In this document: positions 1,578-35,000 of the stretch, one piece after another
How the letters are laid out: every line of letters starts with the position of its first letter
How positions within the stretch are numbered: position 1 is the first letter of the stretch
DNA from: a virus
DNA: 45,450 nt
Reading direction: 5' to 3' (one strand)
IMG/VR virus record: IMGVR_UViG_3300043772_004626
Coordinates: 1 to 45,450 of that record
Position numbers and translations under genes: made by a program
Notes under the pieces: model-generated
Seen by the model: the letters and a program-made list of their open reading frames with translations, nothing else
Told to the model about the DNA's origin: nothing
The model's database searches: none

Positions 1578-3317
1578 TTATTTATGCCAAATCCATGTGC
1601 TCTGACCGCAATCCCAAATTCGATCATATTTTAGTTGCTGCATGATTTGCCATTCGGTTAAATTTTCACTGTTTTCGACGAGAGGTGCAATTTGTTTGCG
1701 CTGAAATTGCATCCTGTTCAAACGTTGTTTATAGTCTGTGTACCAATAACCCGTTTGTGTAGACTGATATTTAAATCCCAGTTTATCATATACTTGACCA
1801 GTTCCCCAACTGTGATCACAATAACTTATTACACTAGTTGGGTTGATTTGCTTTACAAAAAACGCAAACATGCGACCAGCAGCACCAGGCACTGAACCTG
1901 CTGTAGCCAATCTAATCAATTCCCATTCGTATTTTTTAGAAAATCTGGGTTTTCTAAAACTCATTGCAGCTACTAATTGATTTTGACATTTTAATCCCAC
2001 GTGATATCTTGCACCTGCTGATCCCTGTATGTGGTGTTGATCAAAAAAATCTGCCGACGCTTCGGGCGTCATCCATTCAACTGTGCATTTCCTGGCTGAA
2101 ACTGTAGATTGAGATGCCTTTAACAAATAAGTTAATCTCTGTTTACACTGGTCTTTTTTGAAATTCCATTGATCTTCCCAAATTGTGATCAAATTAATTC
2201 CTAGTTTAGTACACTGTTGATATTTGTTTGTGTGATATTCTTTTGTTCGCTGTCCAGCAATCTCACTGTGCCAATACAGTCCTGAACATTCAATAGCCAA
2301 TTGTTTTTGTGGAATATAGATATCAAGCTCTTTACCTAGTAGTACTGATCGATCACTACAAACAAATTCAGAAGTAATTGATTGAACAAACGCTCTGACT
2401 TCAATTTCAAACTGTGACAGTTGTGGCTTAACAAATAAGGATTCAGCTGAATATTTTTTGCTGTACAAATACACTGTATGAGGATGAATATTCATCTGAG
2501 AACTCATTTGTTCTCTGGTATGTGTTTTTGCATACTCGCAAAACTTTTCAGCATTATCAAGTATATCCAGCACAGCCGGGTCCATACCAATTCGACTGGG
2601 GGCTGACACTGAATAATGTGTTTCAATTGTGTGTTTTGCTTTTTGGATCGATGCAGCTTTTTCTTCTGCAGAACGTAAACTCTGAGTTGCAATTGATTTT
2701 GCTAGAATATCAGCATTTTGTAACGGCCTGTTCACACCATATTTTTGTTGATTAGTTTGCTGTTGTTTGAGCAAGCATTGATCTGTCTTCATGTGATGAT
2801 CGATGCCGTACTTTTTTATAGTAGTTGCTTTGCGTTTTTGTTGTTGATGCTGTTTTTGTTCAGCTGTGCGCAATTGATGAGAACTCAACAACTTTTCTTT
2901 AATTTTGGGGTTCTGAACCGGATAATCTACCCCATACTTTTGTTGATTGGTTTGTTTTCTTTTTTGCTTTACACCAGGCACTGCGTTCACAGTGTCAACA
3001 CCGTATTTTTCTCTGAGAGTAATTTTTTGATTTTGCATGCGTAACTTGCCTACACATGCACACTTATTACCCAGAACGCATCCTGCTCGATAACCCAGTT
3101 CCCAAGTATTAAATTGACGTTTGTTGCCTTGTTCACATACTGGTGGTTCACCGTTGATCAATATCCACAATCTTTCACTTAGATTTTTTGGATCATATTT
3201 GTCTGTTGTTTGAGTTAGCTGCGCTAGCAAATTAGGCTGCTTTGATAATACAACAAAAAATCCTTTGGAGCTTTTGCCTTCAATTAATTGAGTAATTTGA
3301 TCACGCAACTTGGTCAT
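1578..3317 (-). CDS. Homing endonuclease, EDxHD/Vsr-like PD-(D/E)XK type with NUMOD-like repeats
   Basis: Free-standing homing endonuclease of 579 residues, probably cutting the portal gene of related phages. The N-terminus has a Cys-containing zinc-finger-like segment (CEQGNKRQFNTWELGYRAGC then CAC, about residues 61-88). Four repeats ending in KYGVD, KYGVD, KYGID and KYGVN follow (about residues 100-215), resembling DNA-binding modules seen in phage homing proteins. The catalytic region ELDIY (E330, D332), AIECSG (E343) and LYWHSE matches the Vsr-like nuclease fold of the I-Bth0305I group. The C-terminal third (from about 410) contains SFRKPRF and IRLATAGSVPGAAGRMF, a region often attached to such enzymes. 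It is inserted between the tape measure and portal genes, flanked by two versions of the portal gene start. No good Shine-Dalgarno precedes its ATG. The nuclease class is inferred from motifs; whether it is active is unknown. Confidence 0.85.
   Translation of the reverse strand: MTKLRDQITQLIEGKSSKGFFVVLSKQPNLLAQLTQTTDKYDPKNLSERLWILINGEPPVCEQGNKRQFNTWELGYRAGCVLGNKCACVGKLRMQNQKITLREKYGVDTVNAVPGVKQKRKQTNQQKYGVDYPVQNPKIKEKLLSSHQLRTAEQKQHQQQKRKATTIKKYGIDHHMKTDQCLLKQQQTNQQKYGVNRPLQNADILAKSIATQSLRSAEEKAASIQKAKHTIETHYSVSAPSRIGMDPAVLDILDNAEKFCEYAKTHTREQMSSQMNIHPHTVYLYSKKYSAESLFVKPQLSQFEIEVRAFVQSITSEFVCSDRSVLLGKELDIYIPQKQLAIECSGLYWHSEIAGQRTKEYHTNKYQQCTKLGINLITIWEDQWNFKKDQCKQRLTYLLKASQSTVSARKCTVEWMTPEASADFFDQHHIQGSAGARYHVGLKCQNQLVAAMSFRKPRFSKKYEWELIRLATAGSVPGAAGRMFAFFVKQINPTSVISYCDHSWGTGQVYDKLGFKYQSTQTGYWYTDYKQRLNRMQFQRKQIAPLVENSENLTEWQIMQQLKYDRIWDCGQSTWIWHK
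1579..1586 (-). promoter_or_regulatory. Candidate T4-type late promoter for portal
   Basis: Minus strand reads CATAAATA, one base off the T4 late consensus TATAAATA, 20 bases before the portal ATG and followed by ACACATAGGAAAAA with a good ribosome site. The final codons of the upstream endonuclease (CAT AAA TAA) form the promoter, including its stop codon. Matched by eye, no mapped transcript start. Confidence 0.6.
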
Positions 3318-3462: not shown

Positions 3463-6400
3463 TCAAACGTTTTCTGCGATAGTATTTAAATACCCAACAG
3501 ATTTGACCTGAATACTAATTAATTCTCTGATTGCTGCTAGCAAATCAGAATTATCGTTAGTAGTCAAACTGGGAGTTGTGATGGTTTCTGGTTTAGGCAG
3601 TGTGTCGACGGGGAAGCTGTCAGTAACTTCTTGCAATAATTTATCCATCTGTTGTTGCGGAGTCATTACCATTCTGCCAGCGTCCACTGGGGTTACCATC
3701 TCTGTCCCATGCATTGTTACAGGAAAACCAGACTCTGGACCAGAAAATACACCACCCTCTTTTGCTTGCAGAGGAACCTCAACGTGAAAATGTCCTGCTG
3801 TTGCTTTGGCACTGGGATGATTGTATTCATCAATAACGAAGTTAGCACCCATACTCTTGAGCATTTCTGTAATTTTTTGCCCTTGTTCCTCAGAAGGTGC
3901 TTGATTTAAAACAAAATCCATAGCAATTCCCTGAGTATGTCTGCTGCTTGGTGATTTTTCTTTATGAAATTTATCGTTGAGACCTGTGATTAATTTGAAA
4001 CCTGGTATTCCCTCTTGTACTTTTTTAGCAAGTTCGATCAATCTGGGACTTATGCCACTGTCAGCAGCTTGTACGTCACCTTCTTTGATCTTCAATCCCA
4101 TTTTTTTGAGATCTTCTTGTGATGTTACTTTAGAGTCAGCTGCTGGTGCTTTGGGTGCCCTTACTGAACCCGAAGTTGTACTCGCGGCGCCTGGTGTAGC
4201 ACTGGCTGTGGCACCAGGTGTGGCGCCAGGTGTGGCACCGGCAGTCACAGGTTGTGCTTCAGTTTTGGGTTTTGCTACTAAGTCTTCTGTTGTGGCTTTT
4301 TCTCTAGCTTTTGTTTCTTCTTCTATAGTTTCTTTTTGTTTTTTAGATGCCTCTGCTACTTTTCTCAACTCCGCTGCTGAATTTTTAAATTCTGGACTTA
4401 ACCATCCAAGTTTTTCAAAAAGGGAAGCCATGAAGTCATAAAAACCCTCTTTCATTGTGAGATAGACACTCATAATTCCATCTTTGACTTCAGTAAAGCT
4501 GGGTATCATAGGAGATATAGCGTTGTATAAGTATCCAAATAATTTGTACAAGGTTCCTATTAATATACCAAAGGGTGTGAATTTTAAAATCAAATTCCCC
4601 ACATTTAAAATCAAATTCCCCACCACATCTACGAGTGGTTTCCATAGCGCACCAATAAGTGGACTGAAGAAATCATAAAATGCTATGACAGCAGCAGTTA
4701 ACAGAGCAAATTTAGCCGCAGCAAATGCCACCCCAGCAATCAACGGAGCCGCAGCAAATGCCACCCCAGCAGCAGTTGCGGCAAAACCAGCAGCAGTTGC
4801 GGCTAAACCAGCAAGCAACGGAGCAAAAGCAATACCCAAAGCTATCAATATGGGTTTCCAGTTATTGGATAAAAATTCAGCCACCCATTTAATCGCCGGC
4901 CACACTGTAGTAGTAACAAAACTACTAAACTGCAACAAAGCTGGCATCACTGTAGTAGTAACAAAACTACTAAACTGCAACAAAGCTGGCACCAATGTGG
5001 TCATCGTAAAATTACCCAAGTTAGCCAAAGCTGGCATCACTGTGGTTATTAAAAAATCACCAAAACTTTTCAATGTGGGTATTAGTGTTTGATTGATGAA
5101 ACTGTTGGGATTGTCAAACGATTTTATTAAACCTGTAACTCCATTTTTAATGGTTTCTATAAAACCCAAAAGAGTGGGCTTAAACTTTTCAAACAAAGGC
5201 ATAATCAAATCATCAAACATTGTTTGTTTGAGTTTTTTCATTGTTTCATCAAAATCTTGTAATGATCTGGTGGTTTTGTCTTGGGTTTCTTGTTCTTTTC
5301 TAGCTGCTTCATTCTTTTCTTTTGCCGCAGCTTCATCCATTGTACCGTCTGCTTTGAGTTTATTCTGTGACGCGATTTGAATAGCTTCCATGGAACCCAC
5401 AAAGGTGTTAACTCCACCAGCTTGCGCAACACTTAAATTGGTACTAAGTTGTTTAGCACGTTTCATTACTTCTATTTGACCAGCAGTGGTTGTTTCATCT
5501 AGTTTTTTCTTACGTTCAGCGTCATTTTCAATTACATTAGTGCCGTTGATTATACCGTCAGTATAATCAGTCATACCCTTCATGGCTCCGCCCATCACTG
5601 CCTGATAATTTCTCTGTGCTTCAGTTTGCGGAGCAATACCCAATATTCTGAGTTTAACCATTTCTGCTCCACTTTCGCCAAATTTTGCACGAGCTTGTAT
5701 CATGGCTTCATTAAGTGCTTTTTGCTGAGTTTCACTCATGCCAGCCATTTTCATTCTAACGGCTGCTTCTTGCATAGTTTTGGCCTGAGCGTCTGCTTGC
5801 TCCTTACGAGATTTTCCAGTAAGTTTGGCCATGGCATCCATTTCCTTCATTAAATTGTTTGCCGAATCCGCCATCTGCTCAGTAGTATAACTGTTTCCCT
5901 GAGCACCCTGACTAAATAAACTCATAATAGTGGGCAAAGATTCATTAACTTCCTGAGCACTCATTCCCAAAGCTCTTAAATCTTTTCTAACAGTTTCACT
6001 AACCTTGGCAAATTTCATCGCACCTTCAGTGACAGTACCAAACTGTGCAAATTTTTCAGTATTGGCGCTTACTGTGCTAGCAAACTGTTCCATCGTCTGT
6101 CCAGTCTGAAAGGCAGCACCACGCATCATCATGATGTTGTTATTGAAACTGGCTCCTGACGCACTGACTGTTTCCAACGAATCCACATAGCTATCTAATG
6201 TTTTAGTTACTGCGGTCAACACACCAGTAAATATGCCTAAAATTCCACCTATTAGCGGCAAACTACTAACTGATTCATGCAGTGCTTCAGTAAAATCACT
6301 TAAACGAGTACCACCCACAAACAAAAATTTAGCAAATTCAAAACCAGCAGTCACAAAATCACCCACAACTTCTATGCCTGTTTGTATAACTGCTGCATAA

Positions 6401-6959: not shown

Positions 6960-6972
6960 GGCGGAAAACTCT

Positions 6973-7839
6973 ATGAACAACCCTAATCCATTACAGAATT
7001 TTTTTAGAAAACCCAAATTTAGCATGTCGTTGCCCAGCCGAGGACGTTGGTATCCACCCAACACATTAAAAAGCACCGACGGCTCAGTGGAAATTTTCAG
7101 CATGACTGCTGCTGACGAAACCAAATTTAAAACCAACGAAGTTTTGATGAGCAGTCAAGCCACATACGACTTGATCAAAAGTTGTGTGCCTGCTATAGTT
7201 GACCCTGAACTCATGCCCATTGTGGATCTGGATGCAGTGTTACTCAGCATACGCAGAGCCAGTTACGAAGATTCTATCACTTTCAAATCACCTATTCCCA
7301 ATACATCATTGGTAGATGAATTTGAATTGAAAATTTCTGATCTCATAGACACTATGTCTAATGCTTCAGTATCATGGGATGAAGAGCTGAACATCGTGGA
7401 AGGCGACAGCACTGTGACTTTTCAGGTTGTACCATTGGCACTAAAGCATTTGTTCAGCACCACACGTCAAATCATGCGCCAGCAACAGCGTGCCGAATCC
7501 ACCATCAATAACAGCATTGAACCTGATGAAAAACTCAACGAGATCAGTCAACAGTTGAAAACCATAGCAGATTTTGCTGTGAACAATGTAGCTGATTCCA
7601 TCAAGAGCATCCGCACCAACAGTGGTTTTGAAACCAGTAAGCCACAGGAAATACGGGATCTGTTGTACAAACTGGACCTGGAATATTTCCGAGCCATCAA
7701 GAATCATCTGGAACAACAGAAAAAGATAACAGGATTTAAACCGGTTATCAGAACCACCACACCAGAGCAGCAAGCACTGGGTGCTCCAGAGACATTCCCA
7801 GCAGAAATTACATTCAACCTCAGTAACTTTTTTGCATAA
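6973..7839 (+). CDS. 26: Baseplate hub/assembly protein, T4 gp26-like, paralogue 1
   Basis: 288 residues; belongs to the T4 baseplate protein family that includes gp26, needed for hub assembly. Hallmarks are FFRKPKFSMSLPSRGRWYPP at the N-terminus, FSMTAADE, a VDLDAVLLSIRRASY block and a final LSNFFA. I chose the ATG at 6973 because it has GGCGGAAAA upstream and its sequence aligns with the start of the next gene; the reading frame is open further back but carries no family similarity. It lacks the Cys-x2-Cys pairs present in the neighbour, so the zinc ribbon seems to have been lost here. A TATAAATA promoter lies 34 bases upstream. One base separates it from the next gene, suggesting coupled translation. 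Confidence 0.85.
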   Translation: MNNPNPLQNFFRKPKFSMSLPSRGRWYPPNTLKSTDGSVEIFSMTAADETKFKTNEVLMSSQATYDLIKSCVPAIVDPELMPIVDLDAVLLSIRRASYEDSITFKSPIPNTSLVDEFELKISDLIDTMSNASVSWDEELNIVEGDSTVTFQVVPLALKHLFSTTRQIMRQQQRAESTINNSIEPDEKLNEISQQLKTIADFAVNNVADSIKSIRTNSGFETSKPQEIRDLLYKLDLEYFRAIKNHLEQQKKITGFKPVIRTTTPEQQALGAPETFPAEITFNLSNFFA

Positions 7840-7840
7840 T

Positions 7841-8659
7841 ATGAACCCACTTAAAGCATATTTTCGTCAACCCGAACTCTATATCAATCTGCCCAGTCAG
7901 GGAAAATACTGGCCCGAAGGCAGTATCATGATTCCTGTAAATGGTGAACTGCCAGTGTACAGCATGACTGCTGCTGACGATATGCTCATGCTAACACCCG
8001 ATGCTCTCATCAATGGCAGCGCCACTGTTAATTTGATTCAAAATTGTATACCCAACATACAGGATGCTTGGCAAACCCCCAGTGTGGATCTGGAATACTT
8101 ATTAGTGGCTATCCGTATAGCCAGCAGTGGAGCAAACATTCAGATAGAAAGTGTATGCACCAGCTGTGATCAAAACAATGATTACAGCATTGATCTCAGG
8201 GTATTGCTGGAGCGATTTGACCCATCAGCTTGGCATCAGCCGCTGATACTGGGAGAATTGATGCTCACATTCAGGCCTTTGAATTTTCAAGTACATAATG
8301 ATTTCGCAAATAGATTTTTTCAGTGCAAGAAAAAACTCAGCCAAACATCCGCAATTGAAGACACAGAGCAGAGAGAACTTATCTCCAGTGAGATCATGAG
8401 CGAGGTTAACAAAATTGACCTGGAGTATCTGATATCCAATATCTTCATGATACAAACTAAAACAGTCACAGTAACTGAACCAGAATTTATATCTGAGTTT
8501 GTTTTAAACTGTGACAAACGAACATACAATCAAATAAAGAATCATCTGGATCTTCTGAAAAAATCAACTAGATGCGATCATCTGGAATTAATTTGCGATA
8601 ATTGCGGACACCAGTACAGCTCAGAATTCAGCATGGACTACGCAAGTTTTTTCGAATAA
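7841..8659 (+). CDS. 26: Baseplate hub/assembly protein, T4 gp26-like, paralogue 2 with zinc ribbon
   Basis: 272 residues; same family as the preceding gene, sharing the FRQPELYINLPSQGKYWPEG, YSMTAADD and VDLEYLLVAIRIAS blocks. It carries two CxxC pairs (VCTSCDQ near residue 107 and ICDNCGHQ near residue 254) bracketing the middle region, as in a zinc ribbon split by a domain. It ends SMDYASFFE, aligning with the FNLSNFFA end of paralogue 1. Its ATG is 1 base after the previous stop with no strong ribosome site, so translational coupling is likely. The last codons TTT TTC GAA TAA include a T-TTT-TTC heptamer where a -1 shift would enter the gp51 frame. Confidence 0.87.
   Translation: MNPLKAYFRQPELYINLPSQGKYWPEGSIMIPVNGELPVYSMTAADDMLMLTPDALINGSATVNLIQNCIPNIQDAWQTPSVDLEYLLVAIRIASSGANIQIESVCTSCDQNNDYSIDLRVLLERFDPSAWHQPLILGELMLTFRPLNFQVHNDFANRFFQCKKKLSQTSAIEDTEQRELISSEIMSEVNKIDLEYLISNIFMIQTKTVTVTEPEFISEFVLNCDKRTYNQIKNHLDLLKKSTRCDHLELICDNCGHQYSSEFSMDYASFFE
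8647..8653 (+). other. Candidate -1 ribosomal frameshift site joining gp26 to gp51
   Basis: The heptamer T TTT TTC lies in the zero frame of gp26 paralogue 2, one codon (GAA) before its stop. A -1 slip reads TTT TTT CGA ATA AAG and continues open into gp51, giving a fusion DYASFF-RIKLLRCDSN and onward. The gp51 frame has no well-placed ATG with a Shine-Dalgarno, which favours either frameshifting or coupled re-initiation. Inferred only from sequence. Confidence 0.4.
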
Positions 8660-9901: not shown

Positions 9902-10975
9902 TTAATCTGTAGGCTTAAATTTACAATTTTCGAAATGATATCTTTTCATGTTAGCAGCACCACCTGTTTTTTTACAATATACACATGTTGCTGTTTTTTT
10001 CTTATGCCCTTTAGAAGCTTGACTTAGTTTTTCTCCAAAACCATCAGGCTTTGGTTTTCCTTTGGAGCTTTTGCTTATGTTTTGCTTCCAAGCATCAATC
10101 TCCTCTTCGGTCATCTTGTAAAAACAAGGTTTGTTAAACATTCCATTTTTTTCCCCACGGTGAATTCTGCGCTTGTCATTTTTCCATTTTAATTTAGTTT
10201 CTTCAGTATGTTTCTTTCCAAACATTCCGTTTTCGTCACCGCGTTTTGGACATTTTTCACGCAAAATTTTTTTAATTTGAATGGATTTCTCTTCTCCAAA
10301 AAGTCCTTCATATTTTTTATTTTTATTATATGGTTCTTTTCCGTATTGAGGATTGTTTTTTCCTCTAGAATACATATTTAAAAAAGTTTCTCGTTCTTCA
10401 TCATTCATTAGTCTATGAAGATAATGACTTTCACCTGAATAATACAGTTCATTTAATTTTTTCATCTCATCACTAGATAATAGGGCTCTCCAGTGAGGGT
10501 TATTTTTATATCTCTCAGTTAAACTATTACTTATTTTTAAGCGAGTTTCTTCCAAGTGTTCTTCTGGTGGTATAAACTTTATGGCACCAATATGGCGATT
10601 GAAGTATTTTGGAGTCGACTGATTGGGCAATTTTGCTCTCAACACGTCTTCAAAAATTTGTTTTCTGACCTCTTCATAAACTAACGAGCCTCTTGTTTTA
10701 TGTAAGGATTCAATATAAAACAGATAATTTTCTTTTCCTTTACTAGAAATACATTGATTTAATAATTCAGATGAACCAGTGTACGATTTCCAATCAGATT
10801 CTTTTTTAATCCTTTTTTTATTCTTCTTACCTTTTACTGTTTTTCTTAAATACTGATGAAATTGCTTTTTGCCTATGTATTCTTTACCTGTATCACATTC
10901 AACTATGCGGTAGATAAATCCAAACCATTCATCAATATTAAACTCTTCAGGAAAAATCCAATGTCCGATGTCCAT
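9902..10975 (-). CDS. GIY-YIG homing endonuclease (SegE-like)
   Basis: 357 residues. The GIY-YIG core is near the N-terminus: GFIY (19-22) and KEYIGKK (31-37). NUMOD3-type DNA-binding repeats follow (NPQYGKEPYNK, NGMFGKKHTEETK, NGMFNKPC). The C-terminus has a zinc-finger-like CVYCKK...HFENC. It is inserted into a nuclease gene: its stop abuts the 3' half and a short 5' remnant lies upstream, next to gp46. The flanking non-coding sequence (about 60 bases) is too short for a group I intron core, so I read it as a free-standing endonuclease rather than intron-encoded. The ribosome site GAGGAG, 7 bases before the ATG, is inside the 3' arm of a strong hairpin, which should repress translation from read-through mRNA. 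Confidence 0.87.
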   Translation of the reverse strand: MDIGHWIFPEEFNIDEWFGFIYRIVECDTGKEYIGKKQFHQYLRKTVKGKKNKKRIKKESDWKSYTGSSELLNQCISSKGKENYLFYIESLHKTRGSLVYEEVRKQIFEDVLRAKLPNQSTPKYFNRHIGAIKFIPPEEHLEETRLKISNSLTERYKNNPHWRALLSSDEMKKLNELYYSGESHYLHRLMNDEERETFLNMYSRGKNNPQYGKEPYNKNKKYEGLFGEEKSIQIKKILREKCPKRGDENGMFGKKHTEETKLKWKNDKRRIHRGEKNGMFNKPCFYKMTEEEIDAWKQNISKSSKGKPKPDGFGEKLSQASKGHKKKTATCVYCKKTGGAANMKRYHFENCKFKPTD

Positions 10976-11078: not shown

Positions 11079-12836
11079 TTATGCCGTCTCCTGCAAGTAC
11101 TGGGTGAAACCATTTTCTTTAATCACCTTGAGTACGTTATTAACTCTGCTGGCCAATTCGTCTTTGTGACTGATTAACCAAACACTGCGATGACGTTCGC
11201 GAGTCATGTGTTTGAGAACAGCCATGGCGTTTTCTACTCCAGCAGCGTCCATACCATTATCGATCATCTCGTCAATGAACAATAGATTAATGGGCTGATA
11301 TAAACTTTCCCAAACATCTCTGAAACTCCAGCTCAAACACAATATTAAACGGGTACTTTCGCCGCGTGAGAGATTCCCCACATCTAGATCTCTACCCAAT
11401 TCTTCAATTTTTACACTGAGATCGCTCTGGAAAACCACACGATGCGGTAACCCCATTTTGTACAGATAGTAACTGAGTCTCTGATTCAGATAGTTGAGGT
11501 TTTGTTCAATGATTCTTTTTCTAATAAAACTGTCTTTGTTAGTGAGCAGTTTCAACAGAAATTCCTCGTGATCCTGAACTTTTTTCAGCTGATTGATGAG
11601 ATCATAGTTGATCTCCTCCAGTGCATGGGTAGTCATTTCAACAATCTGTTCCTGGTAAGGATCAGTCTGAGTTCGTTGTGCTTCCAATTGAGAATATAAT
11701 GCCTGAAGATTGCTGCGATGTTCCACAGCATTTTCCACTGAATCATAGATGGTCTTGACTGGTTTATCCATGACACAGAGATTGCGCTGATCGTCAGAAC
11801 ATTTGGTTACTTCCAGCTGTAACTGATTTAACACCGATTGAGTTTCAGTCACTTGTAACTGTTTTGCAGCCAACTGTTTGTCCAGATCCGGAACTGGCTG
11901 TCCACAAGTGTAACAACGATTTTCACTTAAACTAATCAGTTCAGCCTGTAATCTTTCCAGTGTTTTTTGCTCACGTTTTAGAGCTAGACTTTTTTGCTGA
12001 CACAACTGTTCCAGATGCTGACGTTGTTGTGTTAACTGCTGATATTGTTTCCAGCTTTCGTGTAAAGCAATTTCAGCTTCAATATCCACACTGCTCAGTT
12101 GTTCAATAGCTGATTCAGTGATTGCGATATCGGATTTTTTACGTTCCTGCCAGGTTTGTTGACGCTTTAACAGGTTAGAGATCTGCTCCTGTATACGCTT
12201 GTTGGCATTAGTGACTGCTTGAATTCTTTGTTCTTCCTGGGTGATCAGGTCTCGGGTGGCTTTCATTTGCTCACGAAGACGATCAGCTTTTTCACTTAGC
12301 AAAGTGATTCCCAAGAGCTGCTCAATGATGGTTCTCTGTTCATTGGCTTTTAACGCCAAGAACGGATTAGTATAAGTGTTGAGAGCCACCACATGCTGAA
12401 ACATGTCGTGTGTCATTCCCAGCAATTGATCAATGGCATTTTGTGTTTCACGACTATCACCCTGTGCTTCATCTGCTGCCTGCTGTTCCTCATTGTTGAT
12501 GAAGAACTTGAATACGTTGGGTTTTCTGCCTCGTTCAACACGATATGCCTGGCCTTGAATTTCAAAATCCACTGTGACCAGCAGATTTTTTCCATTGGTT
12601 TTGTTGATGAGATTTTCTTTTTTGATGTTAGAGAGTGCTTGACCATATAAAGCATAACTCAGTGCGTTTAAAACGGCTGTTTTCCCTGTACCATTCCTTG
12701 AACCACCATCTTCGCCACCCAAGTCAATATTTTCACCCAGGACCAATGTGAGGTCCTGGGTGTCAAATTTCACTGCTTGTGTATTCTGACCCACACTGAG
12801 GAAATTTTTAACTGTGATATTCTTAATCTTAAACAT
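11079..12836 (-). CDS. 46: Recombination endonuclease subunit gp46 (Rad50-like ATPase)
   Basis: 585 residues. With gp47 it forms the phage Mre11-Rad50 complex, which resects DNA ends for recombination-dependent replication and host DNA breakdown. The N-terminus has the Walker A region GENIDLGGEDGGSRNGTGKT (residues 34-53). The centre is coiled coil interrupted by a zinc hook CYTC (Cys308, Cys311). The C-terminal part has the ABC signature NLSRGESTR, Walker B LLFIDEMID (about 517-525) and the H-loop WLISHKDE. Length and motif order fit the T4 family. It is one base downstream of gp47, so translation is probably coupled. Confidence 0.95.
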   Translation of the reverse strand: MFKIKNITVKNFLSVGQNTQAVKFDTQDLTLVLGENIDLGGEDGGSRNGTGKTAVLNALSYALYGQALSNIKKENLINKTNGKNLLVTVDFEIQGQAYRVERGRKPNVFKFFINNEEQQAADEAQGDSRETQNAIDQLLGMTHDMFQHVVALNTYTNPFLALKANEQRTIIEQLLGITLLSEKADRLREQMKATRDLITQEEQRIQAVTNANKRIQEQISNLLKRQQTWQERKKSDIAITESAIEQLSSVDIEAEIALHESWKQYQQLTQQRQHLEQLCQQKSLALKREQKTLERLQAELISLSENRCYTCGQPVPDLDKQLAAKQLQVTETQSVLNQLQLEVTKCSDDQRNLCVMDKPVKTIYDSVENAVEHRSNLQALYSQLEAQRTQTDPYQEQIVEMTTHALEEINYDLINQLKKVQDHEEFLLKLLTNKDSFIRKRIIEQNLNYLNQRLSYYLYKMGLPHRVVFQSDLSVKIEELGRDLDVGNLSRGESTRLILCLSWSFRDVWESLYQPINLLFIDEMIDNGMDAAGVENAMAVLKHMTRERHRSVWLISHKDELASRVNNVLKVIKENGFTQYLQETA

Positions 12837-12837
12837 G

Positions 12838-13854
12838 TTATAAGTTACGGTATATATCCATCAGCAGATTGTTGTCATAAAATTCACTGTTGATATTAAC
12901 AATTTGTGCATTTACAATCTGATCCACGCTCTCAAACTTCAGATCCGGCGCTGCGGTGTCTTCAGTGTGAGCATTGTCTTTTTGACTTATCAAACTAATT
13001 TCTCTGAGTTGATAAGTTTCGCAAAAAGTTTCTTTCACAAAGCTGGCTTCTTCGTAAGAGATATCCACGTCCAGGCGAATCCTCACATAGCTGTTGGGCA
13101 ACAGATAACGTTCTGGTTCCTGAATTACATCGCTGATGTTGAATACACGATAACGTGGAGCTCCGGGCCAAGCATAGTAAGTGGGTTCTGATCCCCATTC
13201 CAGTATCATGCAACCACGGTCATCGTCGCCGGCGTCACTAAAGTTGTGAGGGAAACAGTTACCCATGTAGGTGATGTTTCCCTGAGTCTGACGCTTGTGG
13301 AAGTGGCCTGTGAATACCTGACCAATACGCTGAAAATCGTCGGCTTTTAATTCGCCCAGATCCGGCATCTGTACCATGGCATTCATGAGAAAGTTGGGCA
13401 ACTCCAGATGCCCAAACAGATACTGCCCTTGTTGTTTTTGAATCTTTTTGTAGTCTTCTCCCACTAACCAGGGTGCAAACACACAGTCGCCCTCGGTGTG
13501 GAAATCGTTGATGATATCCACACGATCTATGTTGCGAGCCCAGCTAACACTGTATAAGTCACGACGATCACGGTAAAACAAATCGTGATTGCCGGGTATC
13601 ATGATGGTTCTGGGAAAAGTCTTGCTTACTAATTCCAAACATTCCAGACTGTAATTCAGAGTCTGTACATTAATGGTGTTGCGATTGTTGTGAAAATCTC
13701 CCAAAAACAAACAGATATCGCAACCATGCTGCCGTCCTAAGTCGCACATCCACTGAACAAAATTCAAACAATCCTGATTGTGTTGCAACCCATTGCTTTT
13801 ATATCCCAGGTGAATATCAGTAAACGCCATGGCTTTTTTGAATAAATTGGGCAT
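12838..13854 (-). CDS. 47: Recombination endonuclease subunit gp47 (Mre11-like)
   Basis: 338 residues; the metallophosphoesterase nuclease partner of gp46. All expected metal-binding motifs are visible: FTDIH (D13, H15), LFLGDFHNNR, IPGNHD, FGHLE and TGHFHKR. The C-terminal 100 residues, more variable in the family, probably bind gp46. It follows the phosphate transporter gene after a 34-base gap. The ATG at 13854 gives the usual N-terminus; a second ATG 8 codons inside also keeps the whole catalytic domain. Confidence 0.95.
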   Translation of the reverse strand: MPNLFKKAMAFTDIHLGYKSNGLQHNQDCLNFVQWMCDLGRQHGCDICLFLGDFHNNRNTINVQTLNYSLECLELVSKTFPRTIMIPGNHDLFYRDRRDLYSVSWARNIDRVDIINDFHTEGDCVFAPWLVGEDYKKIQKQQGQYLFGHLELPNFLMNAMVQMPDLGELKADDFQRIGQVFTGHFHKRQTQGNITYMGNCFPHNFSDAGDDDRGCMILEWGSEPTYYAWPGAPRYRVFNISDVIQEPERYLLPNSYVRIRLDVDISYEEASFVKETFCETYQLREISLISQKDNAHTEDTAAPDLKFESVDQIVNAQIVNINSEFYDNNLLMDIYRNL

Positions 13855-13888: not shown

Positions 13889-14881
13889 CTAAAAAGGTTT
13901 AAAACCGGTATAAAACGCTGCTGCTATAAGTGCGCTACAGGGTATAGTAATAACCCAGGCCATCACTATGCGACGAGCAGTTTTCCACTTCACATTGGGT
14001 TCTGTTTCGCTCGCACCCACGCCCAAAATACCACCAGTAATAGTATGAGTAGTACTGACGGGAATGCCCATGCTACTAGCAATAAACAACATAATACTAC
14101 CACCAGATTCCGCACAAAATCCTCCTCTGCTGTCCAGCTTGGTTAACTTAAACCCCAGTGTGTCAACGATTCTCCAACCACCAGCCAATGTGCCCAACCC
14201 AATGGCCAAAAAGCTGGCCAGTATTACCCAGTAGGGTATAACATCAGTGGCTTTGAGCTGGCCGCCAGCCACCAATATCAGGAAAATAATTCCAGCAGTT
14301 TTTTGTGCATCATTGGCACCGTGACCCATGCTATAACATGCACTGCTGGCTAACTGGGCCCACCGAAACTTCTGATCCAGCGTTTTATTGGTTGTGGGCC
14401 AGATAGCTCTGGCTGCTGTATTGATACCCGCACCCAGCATAAATCCAATCACTGGGCTCAGCACAATAAAAGAACCAATCTTCACGATGTTATCCCAAAT
14501 CAGTGGGTCTGTACCGGTTTTGCACACAGTTGCTCCGATGAGTCCACCAATCAGTGCGTGACTGCTGCTGGTAGGCAATCCATAATACCAAGTGATCATG
14601 TTCCAGGCAATAGCACCCATTAGACATCCAAAAATCACATTGAGGTCAACCACGCTGGGTTGAACAATGCCTTTGCCGATGGTGGCAGCCACGTGATTGC
14701 CAATAAAAAACACCGAGACAAAGTTAAAGACAGCAGCCATGGCCACTGCCTTTCTGGTGCTCAATGCTCCTGTGGCCACCACTGTGGCTATGCTGTTGGC
14801 TGCGTCATGAAAACCATTGGTGAAATCAAAAACCAATGCTATAAAAATTAAAAATAAAATACTGACTAATACTGGGTCCAC
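13889..14881 (-). CDS. PiT-family inorganic phosphate transporter (PHO4 superfamily)
   Basis: 330 residues, an inner-membrane cation-phosphate symporter of the PiT family. The family signatures appear in both inverted halves: FDFTNGFHDAANSIAT (about 18-33) and YSMGHGANDAQKTAG, along with GLPTSSSHALIGG and GIPVSTTHTITGG. About ten hydrophobic segments are evident, and no frame damage is seen. The start is GTG at 14881-14879, with AGGAG 7 bases before it inside the end of the late sigma gene, so expression in that operon is likely strong. Lying between gp55 and gp47, it is a cargo gene of cellular origin (auxiliary metabolic gene) that may raise phosphate uptake during infection. Phage phosphate genes are more often pstS or phoA; a full PiT carrier is less usual. 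Confidence 0.93.
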   Translation of the reverse strand: MDPVLVSILFLIFIALVFDFTNGFHDAANSIATVVATGALSTRKAVAMAAVFNFVSVFFIGNHVAATIGKGIVQPSVVDLNVIFGCLMGAIAWNMITWYYGLPTSSSHALIGGLIGATVCKTGTDPLIWDNIVKIGSFIVLSPVIGFMLGAGINTAARAIWPTTNKTLDQKFRWAQLASSACYSMGHGANDAQKTAGIIFLILVAGGQLKATDVIPYWVILASFLAIGLGTLAGGWRIVDTLGFKLTKLDSRGGFCAESGGSIMLFIASSMGIPVSTTHTITGGILGVGASETEPNVKWKTARRIVMAWVITIPCSALIAAAFYTGFKPF

Positions 14882-14882
14882 G

Positions 14883-15728
14883 TTAAAACTCCTGACTGTT
14901 TGACCACTTCATCTGACGACTGAAACTGGGCGTTAGTCCATGTTGCTCCAGCAGGTCGTCACGCAGGTCCTGGTTGCGTTTTTCTATATTTAGGATGCGA
15001 GTAAAACTGTTGGTCAAAGTGGCAGTAAAATAACTGAAAGGATTGGAGCTTTTGCTCTCATCAAATTGCAATCCGATTTGGCTTAACTGTACCAATGCTG
15101 CGCCACGCATCTCTTCGTTGTAAGTATACCCACGCCAGTTACTGCGAGTGGCATAACGTTCACATAACTTCAGGAACATCAGTGCCAAATTCTCAGTCAT
15201 CTGACCATGCGTTTTACTAAAGCTGCCAGTGTCTAGGTCACCCGCCCAGTGACTTTTACCCACGCACCGCACACTGTGATCTACGTTGATTCTGTAATGT
15301 TGAAAAGGCGGAAAATTCACACGGATATGTGTGGGGTCTGGTGCTGTCATTATGAGCTTTTCGATGTCTTCTTCGGGTTCCTCTACTTCAGGTTCAATTT
15401 CCTCCAGAAATTTCTGTGCTTTGCTTTTTTTCTGTGCCTTGGGTGGTTTGGGTGGAGCCAGTGGAATATGATCCCAGGTCATGATTCGGAACACCAGGTC
15501 ACTCACTGGTATACACAGTGGATCTGCTTCTTCGCCGGTTTCACGGCGTATTCTTTCAGCTCGATTAGTCTGTGCAGCCAGGATGTTCTGATGTATGTCG
15601 GTGACTTTGTGTAAGATAACATCAAACTGATGATCATTGACTGGATCCTGAAAACTGCAATAACTATTTTTGCTAAGATGAATTTCCTTCATCATGTCGC
15701 GGTTGTTTAGGTAATTGGTTCTGCTCAT
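14883..15728 (-). CDS. 55: Late transcription sigma factor, T4 gp55-like
   Basis: 281 residues; directs host RNA polymerase to late promoters, with the sliding clamp as co-activator in T4. The C-terminal half has the family block NWRGYTYNEEMRGAALVQL, then GLQFDESKSSNPFSYFT and FTRILNIEKRNQDLRDD, ending LTPSFSRQM. The N-terminal half (1-150) has no recognised domain and contains a Pro/Lys/Glu-rich linker near 92-125. It is longer than T4 gp55 (185 residues). First gene of the gp55-PiT-gp47-gp46 run. The ATG at 15728 lacks a strong ribosome site; ATG codons 12 and 13 are alternatives. NATAAATA boxes across the window are consistent with its activity. Confidence 0.88.
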   Translation of the reverse strand: MSRTNYLNNRDMMKEIHLSKNSYCSFQDPVNDHQFDVILHKVTDIHQNILAAQTNRAERIRRETGEEADPLCIPVSDLVFRIMTWDHIPLAPPKPPKAQKKSKAQKFLEEIEPEVEEPEEDIEKLIMTAPDPTHIRVNFPPFQHYRINVDHSVRCVGKSHWAGDLDTGSFSKTHGQMTENLALMFLKLCERYATRSNWRGYTYNEEMRGAALVQLSQIGLQFDESKSSNPFSYFTATLTNSFTRILNIEKRNQDLRDDLLEQHGLTPSFSRQMKWSNSQEF

Positions 15729-15757
15729 ATCTAGATATATACATATATTTTAGCATG

Positions 15758-15765
15758 GATAAATA
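15758..15765 (+). promoter_or_regulatory. Candidate late promoter of the tail/baseplate operon
   Basis: GATAAATA, 21 bases before the ATG at 15787, with AAAGGAAA between. It sits in the 58-base divergent gap facing the late sigma gene. Confidence 0.6.
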
Positions 15766-15786
15766 ACTTAGTAAAGGAAATAAGTT

Positions 15787-26062: not shown

Positions 26063-29000
26063 ATGGCTATTAACCGTACAATAGACTTCCTTCCCGAATA
26101 TCTTAGAACAATTGCAAATCAGAGATTTTTAAACAGTACACTGGATCGAGTAATTAGTGATCCAACACTGAGAAAGTTTGATGGATTTGTGGGTCGTCGT
26201 TATGCAGACGGCAAACAACTGGAAGGGAATTACATAAACGAACCCAGCGGGGTCAGAGAAAAATATCAACTGGAGCCTGAGTTTGTTTTCTCTGATAACG
26301 GTGTTAAAACTCGCAGTGCAGGATTTATTGATCTACTCAACAGTGTGGCTGTGAGAAACGGCAGAGTGGATCTTTGGAATCGTTTGCTAACTGGAAACAG
26401 TTATAGCTTTAAGGGATTTGTGGATCTGGACAAACTCACTAACTATTACAATTATGTGTGGATTCCAGAACCCAGAGTTGTTAACACTGGTGTAGAAAAC
26501 GTACTGGTGGACGAAAACCCCTGGTTCAGAATCCCCATTGAAGTCAGCAACAGCAACGTCCCTAGTTCAAGATCTTTCAACGTCAAAAGAACATCGCTGG
26601 GTTTTGAAGTGGACGGTTATGATGGAATAAACCCAACTATACATTTGCGACGCAGCACGGCATCCACGACTTGCAGTTACACTTTTAATATTTCAGCCAA
26701 TGTGGCCAACGCTAACACCAGAATTCCCAAAGTAATTACTCAGGTAAATCCCAGCCAGAGCGTGGTGATTTCAAATGCTCAACAGCGATTTACCACAACC
26801 ACTGGTAGATTTCAAAACTCTGCTGGTTTATCTGTAAACAGCGATGAAGATTTTAACTTCAAGTGGTTGCCTTTCACTGTGGAAACCTGGGTATATGTAA
26901 GCAGCGTGGGAGACAGTCAGGATCATGTTATAGCTGGACAGTGGGACAACACTGATACATCCAACAGCAGTTGGGCGCTAATCAGAACCAATAATGGTGT
27001 GGACAACACTGTGAAATTTGTGTGGACTGATCTGGATACCGGGTTGGTAAATTCCTTATTGTATACCGACACTGGTGGCTTGAGTTTGAATGCATGGCAT
27101 CACGTGGCAGTTTCCAGAGTTAGCAACACAGTGAGATTGTATGTAGATGGCAACATTGTGAATAGTTCCACTATTGGTACCATTTCCAGAAGTGATAAGC
27201 CTTTTACTGTGGGTGTTAATGCTGCATTGAATCAGGGATTTAATGGTTATCTGGAAGACCTCAGAGTCACAAAAAACATCGCTCTGTACACCATTAATGA
27301 ATACGACGTACCTCAAAGCAATCTAAACAATGATGCCAATACGGTGCTGTTGATCACATTTGATGGAGCAAATGGTGACACAGTTTTTTCAGACAGTACT
27401 GAACTGGAAAACAGCAGAATCTGGATTCAATCACAGATTGGTCGTGATGGAACCATCGTGAGCAACCCCAACCTGGATGCCCGTGATATACTGGGAGTTA
27501 GTAACAATGGTGTCACCAATGGTGCTATTCAATTTGAAGTCCCCAGCTTGGACGACGAGAGTTATTACAGAAATCTCCAGTTAACTGGTAATGAATTTTA
27601 TGACAAAGTGGATCTAGCCACCACACTGAATTTCAATCAAATTCACAATGCAATTTATGATCTTTTTGTGCAATCACCCATCCCGGGTGAAAACAATGAT
27701 GACACCGGCAGACGTGGCGGAATTGATGGCGTCAGATCCCTCAATGGTAAAACTCTGATATTTGTTAACAAACAAGTAAGTGGGTGGGAAAAGGTTGTGC
27801 CTTTGGAATTCCAAGGCATTGAAGACAATCTTTACGAGCAAACAACTCCAGTTCCCAATTCAGAACGATTTGGAGTTTGGCAAATTCGTGTAGTTACCAA
27901 GACTTATGAAGATGGATCAACACTCGATGTTATTCAGTTGGAATTAATTCGTGAAGTGGAAAAAGATTATCGCATTGATGTTCTGGATGGACTAACCTAC
28001 AGAAATACCACTTGGTATAAAAGAGCTGATGTGTATAATCCAGCTGGAACTTCAGATGCTCTTAAGGGATTTTTCCTCAGAATGCCACAGCTGAGTGGCA
28101 ACTACACCACTTTGTATTTGCAAGACGACCAGAGTGATTTCAATGTTCTGCCATTGATTATTATAAACAGTGATGTTCCCACGCTGGACGTTGAGTCAGA
28201 AATTCTGTGCAAGCCCTATTATGTTAGTGGGAACGGAGTGGAATTTATCAACGGGTTACACATCAAATTTGGCCTAGATTCCACACCCAGTCAGTACACT
28301 GATCTCAAAATAGTGGATAGAGTTTTTACTGGGGAAGAAATTTTAGACAGTGAAACGGCCACAGAGGAAATTACATTTTCATTAACCAGCGTAACCAAGA
28401 TTGTATCTGGTGACTTGTTACTGATTGATGATGAATACATGCAAGTAACTGATGTGGATCTCACTTTATCAAAAGTAACTGTGGTGAGACCTCAACGCAA
28501 CAGTGTAACAGCCCCACATTCAAATGGGAGTTTTGTGCAGGTTTTGAGAACACCCAGTTATATTGTGGAAGGTGTTGGTCAGGAAATTGTATTGGTACCT
28601 TATCAGGACCTAACACCTAGCGAACAGTATTTAGATTTTGCTCAAGATCCTGATTATATCACCATAAATCGCGCCAGCCTAGATCGCAATCCCTGGAGCC
28701 GAACCAACAGATGGTTCAACAAACAGGTTGTGACCAAGAGTCTGGAATATCTAACTGATCAGGGTTATGAATTTGATGCTCCTGGTGCCAATCTCAATGC
28801 AGTTCGACCAATTGTGGAATTTGTGGCTGGACTAAGACTTTATGACTTTGGATCAGTTTCTTTGGCAACTATAAACTTTTTTGATGACAATAAAATCAAC
28901 GATGCTTTGAGCAAAATCAATGGTAGAAACATCACAGATACTCAGGCTATTAGTATCGACGGAACCACAGCACTTAAACAGTATGACTTGGTGATCTTTA

Positions 29001-32000
29001 ATGCTGATACTGACCCTGCCGTACGTCAAAAGATTTATCAGGTCGATTACGTGGATGTGGATGGTGATTATAATCTGTTTAATAAAACAGATGTCAAAGC
29101 GGCCACGACTGCTGATATCAATTTGAATTCCCCAGGCGCAGTTGATGGTGTAACACTCACAGTCAATGATCGGGTATTGGTTTGGAAACAAGTTGATGCA
29201 TCAGAAAATGGAATCTACTCTTATAATGGATCTGGGTTACAAAGAGCCACTGACACCAGCAGAGCTTCAGATTTTGCTCGAGGATTTTATGTAAAAGTAA
29301 CTTCAGGATCCACTTATTCAAACAACTGGTTCCGATATAAAGTTACTACTGTTGATAGACTGATCCAGTATCCTTTGGATCAAACCGCTGATGGTTCCAC
29401 TGTGTTGAAATTTACAAACATTGAGGGTATTGAAGTTGACATGCGGGTGGATTTTGCAGGATACACCACTGAATCTACTGTATCGAGCATTGATACACTA
29501 CTCAATGAGGTCACTGTTAGCTCAGCTATCACTGCGCCGGCGGGTACCACTGTAAATTTCTGTAACATTTATCTGGATCAAGTATCTGACCCCAGTACTA
29601 TTGTGTTTGACGCCGTAACAGATCGGGGACCCAGAGTTTACCTAAAAGAATACGCTACAGCTTCAGATGGAAATTGCGTATCAGTTGCACAGGGTGAACA
29701 AAATCGTGGTACCAATTGGTGCTGGGATAACCAATCCAGAAGCTGGATTAAGAGCAGCCAGATCAAAGATCAAATACAACAGAAGCCATTGTTTGATGTT
29801 TTTGATTTTAATGATGTGAGTTTCAGCAATCAAACGGTATATAACAGTACTAATTTTGCTGGTAGCACATTGTTTGAATACAAAATAAATTCCACTGCGG
29901 CCAGTGATCCTGTTTTAAAATTTGGCATCACTTATCGAACCATTAACAATGTGGGAGATATCAGTTTCTTAAATACTTTTGAAATTGACAGATTCAATTA
30001 CATTGATGATGTTGAACTTGGTACCAGTCAGGACACCCCCATTAATACTGGAACTGCAAAAATCGTAGATCCTTGTACTGGGCAAATCACACAATATGAT
30101 GTTTGGCAACGTGTTTTGAATAATTTGGAATTATATCAAAATATAGAAATCACTGGTTCAAATCTGAAGCTAAACTCAAATATCAACGCACAACTGGTTA
30201 TGGGTGATGTACGCAGAGATATCAATGTTGTGCTGGAAAGTGTCAATGACATTCAAGTTGGTATGGTAGTGAGTGGCGTTGGTGTTTCTGGGTTGCCCAG
30301 AGTCACAGCAGTGGACACGGTAAACAAAACAATCACACTCAGTTCATTGCAAAATATATTGGATCAAACTGAATTAACATTTAATAATGTTTTACAGTAT
30401 GATATTCCTGGAAAACTTTTGGTAAAGAATACTCCTAATGCTTATAAGGATAAAATCTTTGTAGACGGAACTCAGCTATATTCTGATTTGTTTACAGTAC
30501 AGCAAATGGGAGATATTATCCGGATCTCCATTAGTGTGGATGCACTGGATCCAATGAATATTCATTATCAAAATATCAGTGCCGAAAGCAAACTATTGAT
30601 CAAGCTGATAGCAAACACAGTTTTACCAAATGCTTGGTTTGACGTACCCACACAATTTGAAATAAATCCTTATAATTTCAGATCCAATGAGTTTACTCTG
30701 AGTGATCTCAAGAGTCACACCGATGCTCTGCACAGCAATCACGGTCACAGAATTACTCCGTTGGTCACTGATAACTCACTGGGTAACATCGAACATCGAG
30801 CCAATCCTGGTTTGATCATGTTGCATGAAGGGTTCAGTGTGCTTCCCACCTTGCTGTTAACAGATACTAGGTTTGATATTGAACGTGCAATCGCCACTGC
30901 TGGTCGTGAATACGAACAATTCAAATTACAGTTTATCGAAGCCAGCAATCAAGTTGAAGCTATTGAAACATTAACCGCGGCTGCTGCTGTGGACTCCATA
31001 TTCACGCTGCTAACGCAGAATAAATCTGCAGATCAGGCCTGGTACACCAGCGACATGGTGCCATTCAATGGAAATGACATCACATACATCGTAGATGATA
31101 CAGCTCAAACAGCATATGACATCAGTGATGTATTTGAAAATCAGGCCAATAACAAAGCAGTATTGGTTTACCTAAATGGTCTCCAATTGGTGCGTGGAAC
31201 AGATTATGAATTTGACACAGTGTCACCAACAGTTAATATTTCAAGAACTCTCAGAGTCAATGATGAATTACGCATTGCGGAATTTGTCAATACTGATGGA
31301 AGTTTTGTACCAGTTACACCGGCCAAGCTGGGGTTAGGTCCAGTTTACATTCCAGAAATCTATATTGATGACACCTACAGAACTCCAACCCGTGTGCTTC
31401 AGGGTCATGATGGTAGTATCACCACAGCATTTAATGATTATCGTGACCAGCTGATACTGGAATTGGAACTCAGAATCTTTAACAACATCAAATTGGACAC
31501 TGATCTCTGGAACAATGTTATACAGAGTCGTGTGCAACCTGCAGGAAAATTTCGTGAACTCAACGGCACTGCTCTGTACAGCATGATTGAAGAAGCCAGC
31601 ATAAGTCGTAAATATTTTTACGATTGGGTGGCCAACAATCGTGTCAATTACGCCAATAGTGTGTACGATGAAACTGATCCATTTACTTTTAATTACAGTG
31701 ACAGTAGAGATCGTATTACTAATCAAAAGTGCCTGGGTTATTGGAGAGGAATTTATCGTGATTTTTACGATACAGATCGCCCACATACTCACCCTTGGGA
31801 AATGTTAGGCATCACTAAGAAACCCAGTTGGTGGGAATCCATTTACGGTCCTGCGCCCTATACCGGTACCAACCTAGTGTTATGGGAAGACCTCAAAAAT
31901 GGCGTAAGCACTGGCGGGAATATCCGTAGTGTGTTGGGTGCCAGAACTACCAGCATCGTAAATTATGAAAACAATACCACTTACAATCTACTGGATGCAG

Positions 32001-35000
32001 TTCCCGCAGACAGTGGCGGAACATTATTGCACCCCATAGACGCTTATCTGATTGGTGGATTGATCACCAGCAGCGCAAAAAATCCGTTTACGTTCAACGA
32101 CAATGGACCAGCTGAAACTGCTTGGAGACGCAGTAGTTCCTACGCCTATGCTAAATTGAATCAGAAAATTTTACAAAATCCACAGTTTATGCTGGGTACA
32201 CTTTGGGATCTGGATAATTACAAACCTTATGCACTGATTGACAGTGTGGGTGTGTTTTCGGCTAGCTATGTGGGTTTCAGATATCTGGAAACTCAGTTCC
32301 CCAGCATTAACGATCTGAAGATTCACACAGTGGACACAGACGATGCAGGTGTTCCTGTGAGATGTCACAGTATACTGAACTTTGTGGTGGAAAACCTAAA
32401 ATCACAGGGACAAAATCCAGTCATTTTAAAGAACGCCATTGTGAACAGCGATGTTAACTTGGTTTACAAATTGGCAGCATTTGCTGACGTGGATAACATT
32501 CAGGTTTACGCCGAACAGAACAGTGTGCAAACACAAGGTAACACTGTGAAAGTTCCTCAGGAAGATTATGAATTATTGTTGAGCGAAAGTGTGCCCATTG
32601 ATGTGGCTTCCTACAGTGGCGTCATTATTAGTCGTTCAGCTAACGGTTACAAAGTAACTGGCTACGACCGCCAGTATCCTTACTTCATCATTTATCCTAG
32701 CGATGTAAACACCACACCCAAGCAGTTCCAGGTGGGATCACAGACCTACGGATATTACACTGAATTTTTGGATAACCCATTGTATATTCCATATGATTAT
32801 GAGTTTATATCCAAACAAACTGTAGTAGATTTCCTACTCAGTTATGGTGAACATTTGAAGCGCCAGGGATTTGCTTTTGAATCTCAACCGGAGCAGGATC
32901 GCATCAATTGGTTGGACGCAGCAGTGCAGTTCATCAAATGGAGTGGTTATAACTGGAGCTCAAACAACACATCTGGGCAGAGATTGAGCTTGGTACTAAA
33001 TCCTGCTGCCGGAGTTTTGAAGTACACACCCGTTGCTGGAACATTGCAGAATCTGATGTTGCCTGACAATCTGTTGTTGGATGAAAATCAGAACATCATC
33101 AGCAGTCGCGACATTGATGTTTATCGTGATCAGGATGTCACTTATGTGAACAATCTACAACCCAACAGCACCATCAGTGCATTGAGAACCAATATTGTGA
33201 GTTACGAGCACAAACTGATTGTTAAAAATCAGACAGTGTTTGGTGACCTGATCTTTAATCCTGCACTGGGTATTCGACAAAATCGTCTGAGATTGGTGGG
33301 TCTAAAAACCAATGATTGGGATGGAACTATTAACAGTGCTGGATACCTGCTGATGTTTAGCTCAGTACCAGAATGGCAACCCAACACAGATTATTTGCAG
33401 GGAGATGTAATCAAGTACAAGAACCGTAACTATACTGCACTGGAACCTGTGATTGGTGCAACCAATTTTCAAACTGAAAAGTTCAGCATCAGTGACGTCA
33501 CTTATCAAAATCGCTTGCTGCCCAGTATTGGCGCAAAGTCACTGGATCTGGAACGTGCATATGATATCAACCACAAACCCAGCATCAGTGATTTTACCAG
33601 ACTGAGATCCAATGCGTTGGGTTATGTAGAAAGAACTTGGCTAGTAAATTTGGGCTTGGACCTAAACAATCAGACTGAATTCTACAGAGGTTGGATTAAG
33701 GAAAAAGGCAGTTTTAACGCAGTAGATAAGTTCACTGCTGCTGGCCAACAGGATCTATTGGCTGATTTTACAGTTTCAGAAGAATACGCGGTAAAGTTGG
33801 GCGATTATGGTGCCACTGGTCGTACAGGTTTTGTGGAAGTTAGTTTGATAAATGACACAGAAAGCAATAACCCTGTGGCTGTGGAATTTGCAGACGGGCC
33901 CAACAGCACTGATTTGATCAGAGTGAGTACCACTGAACTGTATAAAAAATCTTCAAATTGGACTACTAATTTTATCAGTAATACTGGGCAGTTAGTTAAA
34001 AATGAAGATAGATTTATTGACGCTGGACCAGTACTACCCGCTGAAATTTACAACAAAGCCAAATCAGTTACTGTGGAATACAGTGCCGAACAGGAAAATG
34101 CACTGACTTTTAACAGTTTGGAATCTTTGACCAAGACTGAAGACGTTCAGAATTTACTTAAAAATGTGCGTTATGGTAATTGGATCTGGATTGCAGTGGA
34201 CGAAACACTGACCACTGATAACAAATACAATGTGATAACTTGGAAGAATTCTGATGCTAAAATACGGCAGATTAGAAAAAATAATTCACTAAACACGTTG
34301 GAATTATATTTGGATCAGGCATTAGATATTGAAACAGATCAGATAGTAGTCATAGATATTAACGATCTATCTCTGACTGTTCAGGGGGCATTCAAGGTTG
34401 TTAAAAATCAGGTAAACCCCACTGCTGATTATGTCAGTGTGTTGAGCGTAACATCTGATATAGTGGAGTTATACAATTTTGACACTGTGACTTATGCTGC
34501 TGATCTAGAACCCAAGTCAGTGTACATTTATGAAACACTTAGATACAACGATATTGGTAGTGCCTCGTTGAATAGAAATTTGGATAAGTTGTATTTGCCC
34601 AAGGACGGAAAATTATATGTGGACTACAATAATTTGGGATGGGCTGTGTTTGATTTCCGCGAGCCCTATGATTCTGGAAGTTCAAATTTGCCCGACAGTG
34701 AGAATCAGATTACTGGAGCTCCTGAAGGGTTGATTACCACTAGTATTGCTCAGGACGATATCGCAAGATGGCTTTGGTTGGGCAAAGTTGATGACAACAA
34801 AGTGGTGGTTAAGAGTTTCCGAAACACCAATTTGGGTCTGGGAGTAACCGGTGATCTTGATACTTCACTGGCAACTTTTGATCCAACCACCAGCGCAAAT
34901 GGTGAACGTTCAGATACTTTGAAATTGGGTACTGAGATAATAAACCTAACCAACGGTAAAGCAGCCGCAACTGGTACTGACAGTAGTAATCGCGGACAGG

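Follow-up and report, generated by a model that had tools for sequence, protein, structure and literature searches.

The gp55-PiT-gp47-gp46 locus

The window, that is, the whole stretch of DNA analysed here, comprises 45,450 nucleotides from a virus. On its minus strand, a gp55-type late sigma factor gene (14883-15728; phrog_12791, 3.4e-73), whose product is 37% identical to the PA5oct 'sigma factor for late transcription', is followed by a gene for a PiT/PHO4 symporter (13889-14881). Next come gp47, the SbcD-like recombination nuclease (12838-13854; phrog_100, 1e-63), and gp46, the SbcC-like ATPase of the recombination nuclease (11079-12836; phrog_77, 1.1e-96). The PiT gene thus has gp55 and gp47 as its two core borders. 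Only one base lies between the sigma stop and the PiT start, and an AGGAG ribosome-binding site, read from the sequence, is present within the sigma gene, near its 3' end (14893-14889, minus strand), 7 nt 5' of the PiT GTG. The original prediction of an intact PiT gene in an operon-like arrangement, placed between the late sigma factor and gp47 and with its ribosome site within the sigma gene, is borne out by these family and neighbour matches.

The window also carries portal, baseplate hub, gp25-like, gp6-like wedge and other tail genes. A single ORF of 6052 aa (26063-44221, plus strand) comes after the gp6-like wedge gene. A GIY-YIG/NUMOD3 endonuclease gene (9902-10975, minus strand) is present after gp46, and an HNH-type endonuclease gene (1578-3317, minus strand) adjoins the portal gene; a late-like octamer precedes each of them.

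It had been asked whether the gp55-PiT-gp47 order recurs in other contigs. It is kept in three near-identical records (99.7-100% at the nucleotide level) and in two diverged contigs (90-92% at the amino acid level), and the arrangement is, therefore, not a matter of chance. The same block, with virion genes diverging from gp55-gp47-gp46, is found in RaK2, PA5oct and Atu_ph07, but there PiT is missing and gp55 and gp47 abut. Phosso has the block as well, again without PiT, its gp55-gp47 gap being filled by a glycosyltransferase and a small ORF. Since the block is common to all four, it is an old one, syntenic among large T4-like phages, into which PiT was inserted. A PiT gene at this place was not described in the annotated phage records searched.

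The PiT ORF begins with GTG, encodes 330 aa and has no internal stop. It matches PF01384 (Pfam PHO4) over the full length of the profile (1-350) with an E-value of 2.6e-92 and a score of 309.9 bits, the cut-off being 33.7; the profile search thus puts the protein inside PiT/PHO4. Both signature halves of the complete carrier that had been predicted, FDFTNGFHDAANS and SMGHGANDAQKT, are present, along with PTSSSH and PVSTTH. Across 23 phage PiT proteins, FDFTNGFHDAANS / PTSSSH and GHGANDAQKT / PVSTTH are invariant or nearly so. An AlphaFold model of the window protein, built with 22 phage relatives, has a pLDDT of 88.2. Through Foldseek, its best match was 6l85_A (TM 0.88, E 5.6e-16), the next PDB fold having an E-value above 0.01; the predicted structure thus resembles 6L85, a solved sodium-dependent phosphate transporter of the PiT fold. 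No PHROGs family matches the protein, nor does any BFVD viral structure over its full length. The PitA model (NCBIfam NF033774) gives 162.2 bits against a cut-off of 800 and the CysP sulfate permease model (NF053884) 79.9 bits against 400. As both scores lie far below their cut-offs, the protein is given the family name only and is called neither PitA nor CysP. The carrier had also been termed low-affinity, but affinity is not readable from sequence; Monier et al. (PMC3429862) hold that placement in the PHO4 tree is insufficient for inferring it.

A cargo slot between core genes

Among the four neighbouring proteins, PiT is the best conserved. Between the window and the contigs L004 and L005, the amino acid identity is 90-92% for PiT, 82% for gp55, 73-74% for gp47 and 70-71% for gp46, and the dN/dS of PiT is 0.04-0.06 with dS above 1. 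Purifying selection thus holds the gene in these lineages. The gene accordingly shows the sequence marks of a phage auxiliary metabolic gene: a cellular metabolic gene, intact and under selection, on a bona fide phage contig.

The gap itself is variable. Loci were collected with the window gp55, together with reference phages and L001-L005, which gave 85 entries having both gp55 and gp47. The survey was ranked by likeness to the window gp55, and its fractions therefore describe the relatives of this gene and not all T4-like phages: the gap is below 150 bp in 52/85 entries, above 400 bp without PiT in 25/85, and contains a PiT match in 8/85, the last being six distinct contigs, one with a decayed copy. 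In other words, the two genes abut in 52 of the 77 PiT-less entries, and the other 25 carry alternative cargo, mostly a single gene, such as a radical-SAM/SPASM protein, an AMP-binding enzyme, a DUF6071 protein, a glycosyltransferase or a member of several unnamed families. Among the latter, a family of about 296 aa is present in the gaps of seven loci (among L125-L201).

In L124, whose gp55 is 77% identical to that of the window, the gap (5850-6400) holds nothing but PiT scraps with stops and frameshifts. The prediction that the gene shows no decay is true for the window copy, which is open and complete; the decayed relative indicates that PiT is dispensable in some related phages. It had further been proposed that the position links PiT with the core genes of infection instead of with a cargo island. 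This was not supported, as the abutting genes, the other cargo and the L124 remnant all speak against it. The contents vary from one relative to another; hence, gp55 and gp47 enclose a variable cargo slot and PiT is cargo between core genes. Recognizing the slot as swappable aids the reading of cargo in this large phage group.

Could PiT, then, be passing cargo of little benefit, a chance occupant of a tolerant gap that is on its way to being lost? The many unrelated inserts and the decayed copy in L124 would fit such a view. The dN/dS of about 0.06 at dS above 1, the conservation of PiT ahead of its three neighbours and the intact copies kept by a phage-only clade in diverged phages all argue against it, and it is considered unlikely.

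The phage lineage and the PhoU-like partner

Relatives of the window PiT are encoded at 33 IMG/VR loci. In an unrooted tree of 101 rows, a branch with support of 100/100 sets 24 phage rows, the window included, apart from the others. One of the 24, L116, was ignored as a doubtful member because of its very long branch and odd composition. Two phage proteins fall outside and group with bacteria, namely the very diverged PiT of L030 and that of LR756501 (L117), a phage of 735 kb. The portal proteins of the window and of L008, L011 and L017 are 26-37% identical over their aligned parts, whereas the PiTs of the same phages are 64-66% identical. This difference suggests that PiT has most likely moved between diverged T4-like phages.

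A tree was also proposed as a means of finding the donor. The tree yielded the phage-only clade, but no recent donor was found among the bacterial matches listed, the 369 genomes of one class, or plasmids. The nearest bacterial PiTs among the matches listed are beta/gammaproteobacterial and 58-60% identical, and belong to Burkholderiales, Steroidobacteraceae and other Gammaproteobacteria; the best from 369 genomes sampled across one class reaches 57% and the best plasmid PiT 55%. Matches in the phage collection that are named Listeria, Staphylococcus, Salmonella or Enterococcus phage, and likewise the Acinetobacter 'MD-2021a' pitA, were excluded as being probably of host origin, since they are mostly unannotated records or else typical host pitA.

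In the bacterial relatives tested, the gene adjoining PiT is PhoU_div/DUF47 (PF01865). A profile built from these neighbours was used for counting the partner within 1.2 kb of PiT. It was detected at 72/80 of the nearest bacterial PiT loci, some of the other eight being cut by contig ends, and at 0/33 phage-clade loci, with the window counted and a few likewise cut (Fisher p ~3e-21, taking the loci as independent despite their kinship). A search for PF01865 elsewhere in the genome found none in ten phage records. Operons of the type pap/phoU2(pitR)-pitA are known in Streptomyces and Sinorhizobium (PMC7866108) and in Staphylococcus (PMC7326077), and the pap-pitH1 pairing has been described (PMC7866108). 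The phage clade has the PiT family in common with these operons, and most of its nearest bacterial relatives are so paired, but its members do not form the two-gene pap-pit module, as the PF01865 partner is absent.

The absence of the partner suggests that uptake by the phage PiT probably escapes the control that the host exerts on PiT specifically. Some bacteria, such as E. coli, have a PiT that works with no PF01865 partner, and the lack of one does not necessarily imply deregulation. The consistent absence across the phage clade offers a direct test of whether phages strip the control from an adopted nutrient carrier. In the 735-kb phage L117, PiT and PhoU_div occur as a pair (6962-7948 and 7965-8639); this pair, grouping with bacterial PiTs, is a separate acquisition that kept its partner.

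Probable phosphate import during infection

In other members of the clade, PiT lies near replication genes, in which the non-virion part of T4-like genomes is rich in any case. It is located between NrdA and NrdB in L008, L009 and L024, and likewise in L025, which is cut at one end. It adjoins the clamp loader in L019, follows the clamp and clamp loader at a distance of a few genes in L015 and L032, and has the clamp loader nearby in L013 and L014. PiT follows gp47-gp46 in L006 and L011, is near the DNA polymerase in L012 and near the DnaB helicase in L026 (relatives L028 and L029). Phosphate genes are found as well: phoH is about 2 kb from PiT in L010, and in L020 (5968-8132), whose contig has phoH too, PiT directly precedes the gene of a PstS family protein, making a small phosphate-uptake module.

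As for the timing of expression, a candidate host-sigma70-type promoter with the extended -10 TGCTAAAAT was located by a pattern scan upstream of gp55-PiT-gp47-gp46 (15747-15775, minus strand). Matches to the sigma70-type pattern are no commoner than in shuffles; the extended -10 itself is conserved in L004, L005 and L124. On the opposite strand, a late-promoter-like octamer, GATAAATA (15758-15765, plus strand; motif match), faces the divergent virion genes and not the PiT operon. The late-like octamer NATAAATA has nine sites in the 45-kb window, all at gene borders: 1586(-), 3330(-), 3461(-), 6931(+), 6959(-), 10998(-), 15758(+), 22566(+) and 44217(+). Several of them are present 13-53 nt 5' of the starts of the portal, gp6-like, 374-aa virion, GIY-YIG, HNH and 1147-aa tail genes, and none of the nine faces gp55, PiT, gp47 or gp46. 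The strict T4 late promoter TATAAATA was set aside, as its two matches in the window are no more than chance. At the level of motifs, the placement of the octamers and the conserved -10 are suggestive of the PiT operon being transcribed in the early/middle phase and the diverging virion genes in the late one.

We consider it probable that PiT is a phage auxiliary metabolic gene for importing phosphate for nucleotide and DNA synthesis, drawn from a phage PiT pool and held as slot cargo. A T4-like phage, syntenic with jumbo phages of the RaK2/PA5oct/Atu_ph07 type, would have obtained the gene from a pool of phage-borne copies that travel without the PhoU-like partner (PF01865, Pap/PitR). Occupying the gp55-gp47 slot, it would be translated via the ribosome-binding site near the 3' end of gp55. 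In early/middle infection, the carrier would sit in the host inner membrane and import inorganic phosphate, drawing on a proton or sodium gradient and not on ATP. The imported phosphate would then feed nucleotide and DNA synthesis. The pap-pit pairing of bacterial relatives, the PiT-pstS pair with phoH in L020 and the phoH near PiT in L010 all point to phosphate as the substrate.

As one member of the PiT family is a sulfate permease, and the window protein does match the CysP model weakly (79.9 bits), the phage carrier might instead move sulfate or another oxyanion. We find this quite improbable: on the window protein, the score of the PitA model is about double that of the CysP model, and PitA is ahead in 8/8 phage PiT proteins tested, the bacterial relatives stand in phoU_div-pit pairs, and pstS and phoH near clade PiTs favour phosphate. 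Phages do encode membrane proteins with roles in superinfection exclusion or membrane remodelling, but such a non-nutritional role for PiT is very improbable, as it would not need the transport-core signature residues conserved across the phage clade, and in other phages PiT has genes of replication or phosphate uptake and use around it.

A broader version of the phosphate-import reading is put forward only tentatively. Diverged T4-like phages may share a dedicated PiT lineage, confined to phages, that has lost the hold of its PhoU-like governor and become wired into replication modules, so that phosphate import would be on along with DNA synthesis, whatever the phosphate status of the host.

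Phage DNA synthesis can be limited by the supply of phosphate, and pstS and phoH have received most of the attention in this field. A phage-derived pho4 clone (JF837193, 1139 nt, one flanking ORF) was reported in 2012 (Monier et al. 2012, PMC3429862), and pit was listed among soil-phage phosphorus-acquisition genes in 2024 (Nat Commun 2024, PMC10987575). The window PiT is therefore not new in kind; the new facts are the phage-only clade, the missing partner and the gene neighbours of other clade members. That clone probably represents a phage pho4 already and was presented without operon, slot, clade or partner analysis (PMC3429862); in the passages considered here, the soil-phage article, which has a similar phage-encoded pit, does not mention a phage-specific clade, partner loss or the gp55-gp47 slot. 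Earlier statements of the clade, the missing partner or the slot were not found in the literature searched, mostly outside subscription journals. The algal viruses OtV-2, OlV-1, BpV-1 and EhV-86 also carry PF01384 as a horizontally acquired phosphate-uptake gene, but their PHO4 genes branch with algal hosts (PMC3429862), whereas the window PiT is in a phage-only clade.

Marine T4-like cyanophages with pstS and phoH are a further case of T4-like phages that carry genes related to phosphate. PstS, a binding protein, relies on the host ABC transporter, whereas PiT would work alone, and a phage-only PiT lineage would be a self-sufficient uptake route. PiT had been contrasted with pstS as a different strategy; the two are not exclusive, as L020, a member of the clade, carries both side by side.
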